From positions 1 through 20,002 of the forward strand of contig CAAEUM010000213.1 of NCBI GenBank assembly GCA_900759225.1: DNA of 20,002 nucleotides. The letters run 5' to 3'. The DNA is from Lachnospiraceae bacterium (GTDB lineage: Bacteria; Bacillota; Clostridia; Lachnospirales; Lachnospiraceae). This document shows, piece by piece, positions 3,396 to 9,147 of the stretch (positions are counted from its first letter, which is position 1; each line of letters starts with the position of its first letter). Both the position numbers and the translations under genes were made by a program. The notes under the pieces are model-generated. The model ran no database searches, was not told the DNA's origin, and saw nothing but the letters and a program-made list of their open reading frames with translations.

Positions 3396-3547
3396 ATAAT
3401 AGTTCAGCCATGCGAAGATTTAGGCAGTAAAATAGTGTTGAAAGCTTGCTTTCATAAGCGTTTTACTGCCTAAATCTTCATAGGGCGGACGCCCGGCGCT
3501 TCTTGGACGCTTACAGCGGACAAGAAGATGTATGGCTGAACTGTTAT
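3396..3547 (+). mobile_element. MITE-like element, copy 1 (152 bp)
   Basis: This non-coding element has 16-17-bp terminal inverted repeats: 3395-3411 against 3532-3548, with one wobble. Inside are a perfect 19-bp stem (3414-3432 with 3461-3479, inner GAAAGC/GCTTTC hairpin), a small GGGC/GCCC hairpin at 3483-3494, and a second stem (CTTCTTG..CGCT with AGCG..CAAGAAG, 3499-3527). Folded, it forms a four-way junction. It is nearly identical, in reverse orientation, to the element at 8132-8283. No clean target-site duplication remains here: the flanking octamers are ATAATAAA and TATAAGAT. Its tips also read ATAAT rather than GTAAC, so this copy may be older. It lies 40 bases upstream of the next start codon. 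Confidence 0.85.
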
Positions 3548-6179: not shown

Positions 6180-8126
6180 GTGATTGAAAGAATGAAGTTT
6201 TTAAGTATTACCGGCCCCAAGGCAGATATTGACAGGGTGGTGGGAACCTATCTTTCACGATATGAGATCCACCTTGAAAATGCCTTGTCAGAGCTGAAGA
6301 CAGTCAGGGATCTAAGGCCTTATATTGAGACCAATCCCTATAAGGCGGAGCTGGAGGAGGCCAGGGAGCTGGCTGGGGCCTTCCAGGGGGAAGAAGCTTT
6401 AAAGACCGGGAATATGCAGATCGAGGATGCAGTCCGCATTGTGCGGGAGATGAAGGAGCAGCTGGGGGGGCTTGGGGAAAAGAAGGAGCGGCTGGAAGCA
6501 GAAAAGGCTTCTTTGGAGGAATCCAGAAACCAGGTAGTTCCCTTTACCGGTCTTAACTATGACGTGAAAGCTATTTTAAAGTTTCGCTTTATGAAGATCC
6601 GTTTTGGCCGGATGCCAAAAGAGTATTATGAGAAGTTTTCTAACTATGTTTATGATACCATAGATACAGTCATGTTTAAATGTGAGGAAAACGATACTCA
6701 TGTATGGCTGGCTTATTTTGTTCCTGAGAAGCTGGCAGATAAGGTTGACGCCATTTATGCGTCCATGCATTTTGAGCGTTTCTTTCTTCCGGATGAATAT
6801 GAGGGAACACCGGAGGAGGCAGGCCATGACCTGGATGATAAGATCCGGCAGGCACAGTCAGAAATTGACAGCCTTAACCAGCAGATGCAGGCTGCGTTGT
6901 CTGAACGTAAGCAGGAGATCCTTGGAGCATTCCGGTGTCTGGAGCAATTTTCCATTAATTTTGATGTGCGCAGGATGGCGGCATGTACTAAGCATGATGA
7001 GCACACCTTCTACATCCTATGCGGATGGATGACGGAGCGGGATGCAATGGCTTTCAGTAAGGAGATTGAGAAGGATGATGACACCTTCTGTATTATTGAG
7101 GATGATCATAACAACATTATGAGTACACCTCCTACCAAAATGCGTAATCCAAAGCTGTTTAAGCCCTTTGAAATGTATGTGGAGATGTATGGGCTTCCCT
7201 CTTATAACGAGATTGACCCTACGATTCTGATCGGCCTTACCTATTCCTTTTTGTTCGGCTTTATGTTCGGGGATGCGGGACAGGGCCTGTGCCTTCTGAT
7301 CGGCGGATTTTTGCTGTACCGGTTTAAGAAGATGCGTCTGGCTGGGATCATTTCCTGCTGCGGTTTCTTTTCCACTATCTTCGGCTTCCTTTTTGGAAGC
7401 ATCTTCGGGTTTGAGGATATTATAGATGCAGTGTGGCTGCGGCCCCAGGAGGCGATGACAGAGCTGCCCTTTATCGGAAAGCTCAATACCGTGTTTGTAG
7501 TGGCGATCGCTATTGGCATGGGCATTATCCTTCTGTGCATGATATTAAATATGATCAACAGTGCTAAAAGCCATGACGCGGAGAAGATGTACTTTGACAC
7601 AAACGGAGCAGCCGGCTTTGTATTTTATCTGGCGCTGGCGTCCACCATTGTGCTGTATATGAGCGGAAAGCCCCTTCCTGCAACCGTTATCCTGGCAGTT
7701 ATGTTCATAATCCCGCTGCTTCTTATTTTCTTTAAGGAGCCTCTGGCAGCCATGGTGGAGAAAAAGGCAGAGAGGATAGAGGGCGGTGTGGGGATGTTCA
7801 TTACCCAGGGCGTTTTCGAGCTATTTGAAGTGCTTTTAAGCTATTTTTCCAATACCCTTTCCTTTGTCCGTGTGGGAGCCTTTGCAGTGAGCCATGCAGC
7901 CATGATGCAGGTGGTCCTGATGTTAGCCGGGGCAGAGGTAGGAGATCCAAACTGGGCGGTGGTCATTGGCGGAAATCTTTTTGTCTGCGGCATGGAGGGC
8001 CTGATCGTAGGCATCCAGGTGCTGCGTCTGGAATATTATGAGCTGTTCAGCCGGTTCTACCGGGGCAGCGGACGACCCTTTAAGCCATATGGAGAGGCAG
8101 TAAAGGGGTCGACCCTGATATCATAA
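6180..8126 (+). CDS. ntpI: V-type ATPase subunit I (membrane stator, a-subunit homologue)
   Basis: The product has 648 residues, near the family norm of about 650. The N-terminal half (to about residue 335) is soluble, with coiled-coil arms near 85-125 and 215-245. The C-terminal half has about seven or eight membrane helices. Family motifs are LFGFMFGDAGQGLC in the first helices and SFVRVGAFAVSHAAM, whose Arg (residue 564) corresponds to the conserved half-channel arginine facing the proteolipid carboxylate. GTG 6180 is chosen because AAAGGGG (6166-6172) lies 7 bases upstream and the resulting N-terminus fits the family. A GTG at 6144 lies within ntpC without a good site, and ATG 6192 is too far from the site. 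An inserted MITE follows 5 bases after the stop. Confidence 0.92.
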   Translation: MIERMKFLSITGPKADIDRVVGTYLSRYEIHLENALSELKTVRDLRPYIETNPYKAELEEARELAGAFQGEEALKTGNMQIEDAVRIVREMKEQLGGLGEKKERLEAEKASLEESRNQVVPFTGLNYDVKAILKFRFMKIRFGRMPKEYYEKFSNYVYDTIDTVMFKCEENDTHVWLAYFVPEKLADKVDAIYASMHFERFFLPDEYEGTPEEAGHDLDDKIRQAQSEIDSLNQQMQAALSERKQEILGAFRCLEQFSINFDVRRMAACTKHDEHTFYILCGWMTERDAMAFSKEIEKDDDTFCIIEDDHNNIMSTPPTKMRNPKLFKPFEMYVEMYGLPSYNEIDPTILIGLTYSFLFGFMFGDAGQGLCLLIGGFLLYRFKKMRLAGIISCCGFFSTIFGFLFGSIFGFEDIIDAVWLRPQEAMTELPFIGKLNTVFVVAIAIGMGIILLCMILNMINSAKSHDAEKMYFDTNGAAGFVFYLALASTIVLYMSGKPLPATVILAVMFIIPLLLIFFKEPLAAMVEKKAERIEGGVGMFITQGVFELFEVLLSYFSNTLSFVRVGAFAVSHAAMMQVVLMLAGAEVGDPNWAVVIGGNLFVCGMEGLIVGIQVLRLEYYELFSRFYRGSGRPFKPYGEAVKGSTLIS

Positions 8127-8131
8127 AAATT

Positions 8132-8283
8132 GTAACAGTTCAGCCATATATCTTCTTGCCCGCTTACAGCGGACAAGAAGCATCGGGCGTCCGCCCTATG
8201 AAGATTTAGGCAGTAAAACATTTATGAAAGCAAGCTTTCAACACTTTTTTACTGTCTAAATCTTCGCATGGCTAAACTGTTAC
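8132..8283 (-). mobile_element. MITE-like element, copy 2 (152 bp) with 8-bp target-site duplication
   Basis: The 16-bp terminal inverted repeats (8132-8147 and 8268-8283, one mismatch) begin GTAAC and end GTTAC. They are flanked directly by a perfect 8-bp duplication, TAAAAATT at 8124-8131 and 8284-8291, which is direct evidence of transposition. Internal hairpins match copy 1 (3396-3547), which is in the opposite orientation and the same length. It carries no ORF. It sits between ntpI and ntpK, widening that gap to 194 bases, and leaves the ntpK ribosome site intact. GTAA tips and 8-bp duplications are typical of the IS66 family; the link to IS66 is inference. Confidence 0.92.
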
Positions 8284-8320
8284 TAAAAATTAACATATGT
8301 GAGAAAAGGAGAAATGAATT

Positions 8321-8756: not shown

Positions 8757-9065
8757 ATGAAGATGTATCTTATCAGCGATAACATCGACACTCTGGCAGG
8801 TATGCGCCTGGCTGGGGTGGAGGGGGCTGTAGTCCATAAGAGGGAAGAGCTGAAAGCAGAGCTGGATAAGGTTCTGGCCGATAAAAACATTGGCATTGTC
8901 CTTCTGACGGAGAAATTCGGCAGGGAATTCCCGGAAATCATTGACAATGTAAAGCTGGAGCGCAAGCTTCCGCTGATCGTAGAGATTCCTGACCGCCATG
9001 GTACCGGCCGCAAGCCGGACTTTATCACCTCTTATGTAAACGAAGCCATTGGACTAAAACTTTAA
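8757..9065 (+). CDS. ntpF: V-type ATPase subunit F (central rotor shaft)
   Basis: This 102-residue protein has the length and alpha/beta pattern of NtpF/AtpF: N-terminal MYLISDNIDTLAGMRLAGVEG, then GIVLLTEKFG and LPLIVEIPD. It binds subunit D in the rotor and is often a regulatory contact. The gene starts 4 bases after ntpK. ATG 8757 has no strong ribosome site, so coupling to ntpK translation is likely; ATG 8763 is an alternative. The TAA stop (9063-9065) lies within the left copy of an 8-bp target duplication made by the 50-bp MITE that follows. The coding sequence is left intact. Confidence 0.9.
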   Translation: MKMYLISDNIDTLAGMRLAGVEGAVVHKREELKAELDKVLADKNIGIVLLTEKFGREFPEIIDNVKLERKLPLIVEIPDRHGTGRKPDFITSYVNEAIGLKL

Positions 9066-9068
9066 ACC

Positions 9069-9118
9069 GTAACCGTTCAGCCGCAGGCGGGCAGGAAGAT
9101 GTACGGCTGAACAGTTGC
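9069..9118. mobile_element. 50-bp MITE deletion derivative with 8-bp target-site duplication
   Basis: The ends 9069-9083 and 9104-9118 are inverted repeats (13 of 15 paired) with GTAAC at the left tip. They contain the GTTCAGCC core of the 152-bp elements, with only 20 bases between them. A perfect 8-bp direct repeat, TTTAAACC, flanks the element at 9061-9068 and 9119-9126. The right half (AGGAAGATGTACGGCTGAAC) resembles the right end of copy 1. Both large internal hairpins are missing. It lies between ntpF and ntpE. Confidence 0.88.
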
Positions 9119-9147
9119 TTTAAACCTATAGAAAGCAGGTGAGGAGC

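Follow-up and report, generated by a model that had tools for sequence, protein, structure and literature searches.

A multicopy MITE family, probably mobilised by an ISBst12-like IS66 transposase, with insertions in a Lachnospiraceae V-ATPase operon

Between the genes for subunits I and K of a V-ATPase operon in a Lachnospiraceae genome lies a 152-bp stretch that has inverted ends, holds no gene and is flanked on both sides by the same 8 bp. The question raised by this locus, which we studied in a window of 20,002 nucleotides (the whole stretch of DNA analysed, from contig CAAEUM010000213.1), is what this element is and what moved it there. We conclude, with a probability of roughly 0.85, that it and its relatives are copies of a non-autonomous MITE family moved by an IS66/ISBst12-type transposase. 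The hosts of these MITEs are Enterocloster-like and related bacteria.

The window contains three copies (Table 1). The first-pass annotation, made from the letters alone, had described an ORF-free element with 16-bp inverted ends (one mismatch) between exact repeats of TAAAAATT, a second 152-bp copy in reverse orientation and a 50-bp derivative, and each of these was confirmed on re-examination. Copy 2 is copy 1 reversed, as 150 nt of the two pair at 90% (88.8% identity in the alignment); its tips are decayed and its flanks, ATAATAAA and TATAAGAT, match at 2 of 8 positions, leaving no clean duplication. The 50-bp copy, internally deleted, proved to have an exact duplication of its own, TTTAAACC, which the annotation had missed. 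At both MITE ends the terminal inverted repeats carry GTAACNGTTCAG, and the ORF list of the window has no frame of at least 80 aa inside the copies. Scored against the family model, copy 1 gives 136.5 bits (E 5.1e-35) and copy 2 gives 125.3 bits, both being among the 30 sequences of that model.

Table 1. Positions of the elements and their parts in the window
Feature	Position	Strand	Remarks
MITE copy 1, full length	8132-8283	+	152 bp; between V-ATPase subunits I and K
Copy 1, left target duplication TAAAAATT	8124-8131		first 3 bases are the subunit I stop
Copy 1, right target duplication TAAAAATT	8284-8291		8 bp, exact
Copy 1, left terminal inverted repeat GTAACAGTTCAGCCAT	8132-8147	+	from the sequence
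Copy 1, right terminal inverted repeat ATGGCTAAACTGTTAC	8268-8283	-	1 mismatch in 16 to the left repeat (reverse complement)
Internal hairpin 1 CTTCTTGCCCGCTTACAGCGGACAAGAAG	8152-8180	+	fold; consensus helix 2
Internal hairpin 2 GGGCGTCCGCCC	8185-8196	+	fold; consensus helix 3
Long internal hairpin GAAGATTTAGGCAGTAAAA...	8200-8265	+	fold; most compensated changes
MITE copy 2, full length	3396-3547	-	152 bp; ABC-transporter gene on one side, SH3-domain gene downstream
MITE 50-bp copy, internally deleted	9069-9118	-	between V-ATPase subunits F and E
50-bp copy, left duplication TTTAAACC	9061-9068		contains the subunit F stop (9063-9065)
50-bp copy, right duplication TTTAAACC	9119-9126		8 bp, exact

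Evidence for transposition comes from the flanks of the family's copies. After opposite-strand matches and same-place repeats were dropped, 165 distinct copies remained, the model-building sequences included (alignment A2 comprises 150 of 167 matches). Duplications were counted in the 121 copies that have both tips and 12-nt flanks, drawn from related genomes and including the two full window copies; the 44 with damaged tips or short flanks were left out. An exact 8-bp duplication flanks 42 of the 121, compared with 0.1% of random pairings of left and right flanks, and at least six of the eight bases agree in 88 of them, compared with about 4% of such pairings. The length is specific: exact repeats of 4, 5, 6, 7, 9, 10 and 11 bp occurred 2, 0, 2, 1, 1, 1 and 0 times, respectively. 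The targets are AT-rich, and insertion would be into AT-rich 8-bp sites.

The empty sites anticipated by the first-pass annotation were also found, in that the family model detected no copy (0 of 44) at orthologous V-ATPase loci. The I–K gap could be located in all 44 of these loci; 37 also showed the F–E gap, and 16 the SH3 gene. Among these relatives, the best segment of the window's subunit I reaches no more than 76% identity. A BLAST search with the window copies likewise gave no match in the 44 loci. In 11 of the 12 loci L001–L012 the I–K gap is 23–74 nt long, against 182 nt in L010 and 194 nt in the window. The exceptions to emptiness are L010 and L011, whose I–K gaps hold other tip-bearing elements, described below.

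Insertions avoid long reading frames: an open frame of at least 100 aa spans 44 of 117 insertion sites but 464 of 585 control positions. By a crude ORF caller, 52 of the 121 elements share more than 20 nt with a called ORF, and avoidance of genes is therefore a tendency and not a rule. With the same crude caller, and read without a genome baseline, the neighbouring genes are tandem in 61 cases, divergent in 33, convergent in 25 and incomplete in 2. Of the earlier claim that the family chooses intergenic sites inside operons, the avoidance of long frames is thus upheld, whereas a preference for operons does not follow from these neighbour counts. Insertions between genes may be those that survive best.

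Copies of the family are widespread in related genomes. With a copy from [Clostridium] asparagiforme DSM 15981 (genome G004, which carries locus L010) as query, 14 of the 17 genomes of its genus gave matches, 54 of them in G004 itself, and together with the 42 exact duplications among 121 copies this bears out the proposal of a multicopy MITE family making 8-bp duplications. At least one exact tip is present in 13 of 14 genomes. G004 has 41 exact tips and G022 has 103, with no occurrence of the reversed pattern in either, and G002 has neither. The copies closest to the window element are 88.1% (L066, genome G014) and 78.8% (L058, genome G017) identical to it, and the G004 type, at 62% identity, has the same 152-bp layout. 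The 121 two-tipped copies are between 104 and 192 bp long. A BLAST search with the window element itself gave weak matches in two of eight genomes and none among plasmid and phage nucleotide sequences. In a family-level sample of 397 genomes, a covariance model built from 30 copies gave matches in 65 at E 0.001 and in 21 at E 1e-15 or better, with seven candidates per genome scored and some of the weak matches consisting of the long hairpin only.

Tips also occur outside complete copies. The 16-base tip pattern was seen in ten viral contigs, by our estimate about the number expected by chance, save for L054, L050 and L052, in which the tips are paired. Contig L054 carries an 80-bp tip-bearing element (662–741) with an exact GTTTATTT repeat, and L052 a 105-bp one (1621–1725) with a 7/8 repeat. 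Since short tip-bearing elements occur on viral contigs, phages may move them from one host to another. Elsewhere, 22 of 81 tips have no partner within 320 nt. The idea that these solitary tips mark the ends of longer elements was set aside, as only L077 and L087 were found to share an end. These two loci, both in genome G014, have the same 54-bp end, which starts at the tip GTAACAGTTCAG, and differ beyond it; they are perhaps a deleted element or a further, third type of MITE.

Both full window copies are predicted to fold into an outer stem with three hairpins (−71.5 kcal/mol and z −13.7 for copy 1, z −13.2 for copy 2), and the pairing is conserved across the family. Compensated changes affect 23 of the 47 pairs among 30 copies, a number reached by none of 500 shuffles; the long hairpin (helix 4) is changed on both sides at 14 of its 16 pairs. 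For four of the five covariation measures none of the 500 shuffles attained the observed value, whereas 7 of 500 did so for the fifth, further pair types; in this test relatedness alone can exceed the shuffles. Sliding the pairing partners lowers the proportion of paired cells from 96.3% to 33–46%. On the modelled strand, the 165 copies, which are not independent of one another, contain 158 G-U pairs and 219 A-C mismatches and thus no excess of wobble pairs; on the opposite strand, where the A-C mismatches read as wobble pairs, the excess is 1.4-fold, which we consider small.

In 34 pairs of copies less than 5% apart, 46 cells are changed on one side only and 6 are compensated, whereas copies at least 35% apart show 7696 one-sided and 17497 compensated cells. 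It looks as if the mobile lineage preserves complementarity while resident copies lose it, the fold belonging to that lineage and not to a host RNA. Two questions that tend to be run together come apart here: compensated pairing is strong, yet it is no pointer to a host RNA, given that the modelled strand shows no wobble enrichment and inserted copies decay. Compensated changes would arise in the mobile source lineage, with inserted copies decaying thereafter.

Not all of the fold appears to be needed for movement. In G004, derivatives of 98 bp (L347, L348 and L356) and 103–105 bp (L349–L353) lie at separate sites; in these hairpin 1 is absent, hairpin 2 is wholly or partly absent and the long hairpin is kept. 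Four of the eight have a duplication matching at 7 or 8 of 8 positions, and in the survey of derivatives a tip pair was present in 10 of 12 regions. The occurrence of short derivatives at several sites argues that the small hairpins are dispensable, and the tips, perhaps with the long hairpin, may suffice for movement without them.

What keeps the hairpins complementary is a separate matter. One answer is compatible with a transposon: since one arm of a palindrome can template the other, the hairpins may be maintained by template-switching correction and not by selection. Compensated changes free of wobble bias on the modelled strand are what such correction would leave behind, but close copies mostly hold uncorrected one-sided changes, which indicates that correction is not fast at resident sites and leaves room for slow action or for action on source copies. 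We regard this as a real possibility, though one to which we give rather less than even odds. That the internal fold is itself selected for mobility in this IS66-type class of MITEs seems to us unlikely. If it were, the outer stem and the long hairpin, extruded in DNA, would aid the transposase in finding, pairing or copying the element, and source lineages would rewrite whole helices by compensated changes as resident copies decayed.

As to the machinery, the first-pass annotation had invoked IS66 elements, and IS66 transposases are present in 10 of the 17 genomes of the genus (57 matches, of which 30 loci were read). Clean ends were identified in five of these 30 loci (L118, L136, L140, L144 and L147, each about 2.5 kb) and have the sequence GTAAGCGTCAAATAA; a sixth locus, L121, ends in GTAAATCCATCGATGGTC. 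We rejected these GTAAGCG-ended copies as parents because their ends, GTAAGCGTCAAA, have four mismatches to the MITE tip, and a tnpA/tnpB/tnpC element with the same ends as the MITE, which the annotation had envisaged, was not found: the five ~2.5-kb loci of the genus carry GTAAGCGTCAAATAA. Matches to IS66 of some kind are present in G004, G010, G016 and G020, and none were obtained in the MITE-rich genomes G011, G019, G021 and G022, so that no resident partner is shown in those four. The reverse of the MITE-rich genomes is seen in G018, with 31 IS66 transposase matches (25 of them outside the 30 loci read) and only two weak MITE matches.

A better match came from an IS66 fragment in G016, L123, which has CTGAATAGTTAC directly after its stop codon. 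The L123 protein as query matched in 25 of 299 genomes, and the 487-aa protein of L179, which is IS66 by PF03050 and NF033517, matched in 6 of 392 genomes at E 1e-60. We then took 26 matches extending close to the C-terminus, 22 of them from the L123 search and 4 from the L179 search. In 14 of the 26 loci the tip, with no or one mismatch, lies no farther than 300 nt from the point where the C-terminal match ends; the reversed tip does so in none of the same 26. By the same test, 1 of 21 genus loci (of the 30 read) has a matching tip, namely L123 itself, which is the same place as L178 of the first set. L212, outside the 26, also has a tip beyond its stop.

The tips of this single-gene branch of IS66 are GTAACTRTTCAG, and MITE tips agree at 10 or 11 of 11 fixed positions with the sequence following the 14 transposase stops. 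At tip position 6 the IS66 tips read have T, and A is found in 78 and 98 of the 121 MITE ends; the tips are all that MITE and IS66 elements were found to have in common. Five IS66 elements, L179, L186, L208, L209 and L212, carry both tips. A single long frame on the coding strand is present in L179 (1824 bp, 487 aa), L186 (2267 bp, 550 aa) and L212 (1453 bp, 469 aa), and the transposase frames of L208 and L209 are broken. L209, 1696 bp long, has the tips GTAACTATTCAG at both ends and a perfect 8-bp duplication, ATATTTTT, and is the only one of the five with a duplication.

The proposal of IS66 mobilisation is therefore supported after refinement: the ends of the canonical IS66 elements read in the genus differ, and those that match are found on a one-gene branch of IS66 similar to the ISBst12 group. 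The best candidate parent is an ISBst12-like transposon, which has probably since been lost from many MITE-bearing genomes. Such a transposase would recognise the tips and move the MITEs in trans. A transposase of another family could have done so instead, given that IS256, ISL3 and ISAs1 also make 8-bp duplications and that the MITE-rich genomes yielded no intact matching IS66; the fit of the tips at 10–11 of 11 fixed positions after 14 of 26 IS66-type transposase stops, and their resemblance to published ISBst12-group ends, make this very improbable in our view.

The operon around copy 1, as the first-pass annotation had proposed, is a real V-ATPase operon: subunits I, K, F, A, B and D match Pfam models above cut-off, and subunit E falls just below (22.6 against 24.2). 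The clean duplications overlap the stop codons of subunit I (TAA, 8124–8126) and subunit F (TAA, 9063–9065), and since each includes the stop of the upstream gene, the stop was duplicated and kept; the I, K, F and E genes are all unbroken. No terminator-like site was detected inside the window elements, and read-through is accordingly expected, giving an mRNA with a branched hairpin before subunit K. The insertions in the operon are probably transcribed, on the predicted fold, as a branched hairpin within its mRNA. That each element is instead a regulatory element or structured RNA which the host maintains at its site, with no transposon involved, could draw on this position in a transcribed operon, on the very stable branched fold (z −13.7 and −13.2), on the covariation at 23 of 47 pairs and on the 1.4-fold wobble excess if the opposite strand is read, but it is scarcely credible in the face of 8-bp duplications and orthologous sites without a family copy, of zero Rfam matches at gathering score in the window, of 158 G-U against 219 A-C on the modelled strand of 165 copies and of 46 one-sided against 6 compensated cells in copies less than 5% apart.

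The I–K gap holds elements of other kinds in two relatives. In L010 a 132-bp element (7960–8091) has the same tips, another interior and a duplication at 6 of 8 positions; a MITE of the same type at L168 (1501–1657), with which it has the hairpin TGCGCACTTGCTGCGCTGACC in common, has exact GTCAATTG on both sides. By their sequences the L010 and L168 elements make up a second type of MITE, which differs in its interior and not in its tips. The I–K gap of L011 (7389–7454) contains a 32-bp tip remnant with AGAAAAAC on either side, and a 49-bp mini-element with a 7/8 duplication lies at 2650–2698 of the same locus, upstream of the gene for the SH3 protein. The L011 elements thus occupy the same two gaps, I–K and upstream of the SH3 gene, as elements in the window. 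Together with the window copy, the L010 and L011 elements make three cases that suggest repeated landing in the I–K gap, an observation made after the fact to which we attach no statistical claim.

Palindromic repeats of the REP/REPIN and ERIC types are, like the MITE described here, intergenic and present in many copies. Unlike this family, REPINs are not known to make clean 8-bp duplications. ISDge4 of the ISBst12 group has one gene and an 8-bp repeat, and its ends are GTGACTACTCAGCA and GTAACTGCTCAGCA (PMC12898284); the group resembles the MITE in its GTAACTGCTCAGCA-type tips and 8-bp direct repeat and differs in having a single transposase gene, where the MITE is gene-less with a hairpin interior of its own. 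IS66 elements in general are described with GTAAGCG ends and 8-bp repeats (PMC11946415), and canonical IS66 thus has in common with the MITE the GTAA start and 8-bp duplication, while beyond GTAA the ends diverge. MITEPsy1 of Pseudomonas syringae is 100 nt long, makes a 4-nt duplication and is tied to ISPsy2 (PMC3189936); it too is short and gene-less, with inverted ends, a target duplication and supposed movement in trans, but the family here differs in its 8-bp duplication, IS66-type tips and conserved branched interior. IS66 is mentioned once, and a MITE not at all, in the available text of a paper comparing C. bolteae and C. clostridioforme (PMC5073890), and in open-access literature on MITEs, IS66 and ISBst12 the family is not described in the titles or abstract openings of the matches listed. 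We accordingly rate the MITE family as new and the kind of element as already known.

The finding adds a MITE family with a likely parent type in bacteria such as Enterocloster, and its empty sites and duplications can be used for dating insertions. It also carries a caution for RNA-discovery pipelines in which covariation in repeated elements counts as proof that an RNA exists. To our knowledge, transposition that depends on the fold would, if true, be new in a DDE family, and in an IS66-type system it becomes testable.
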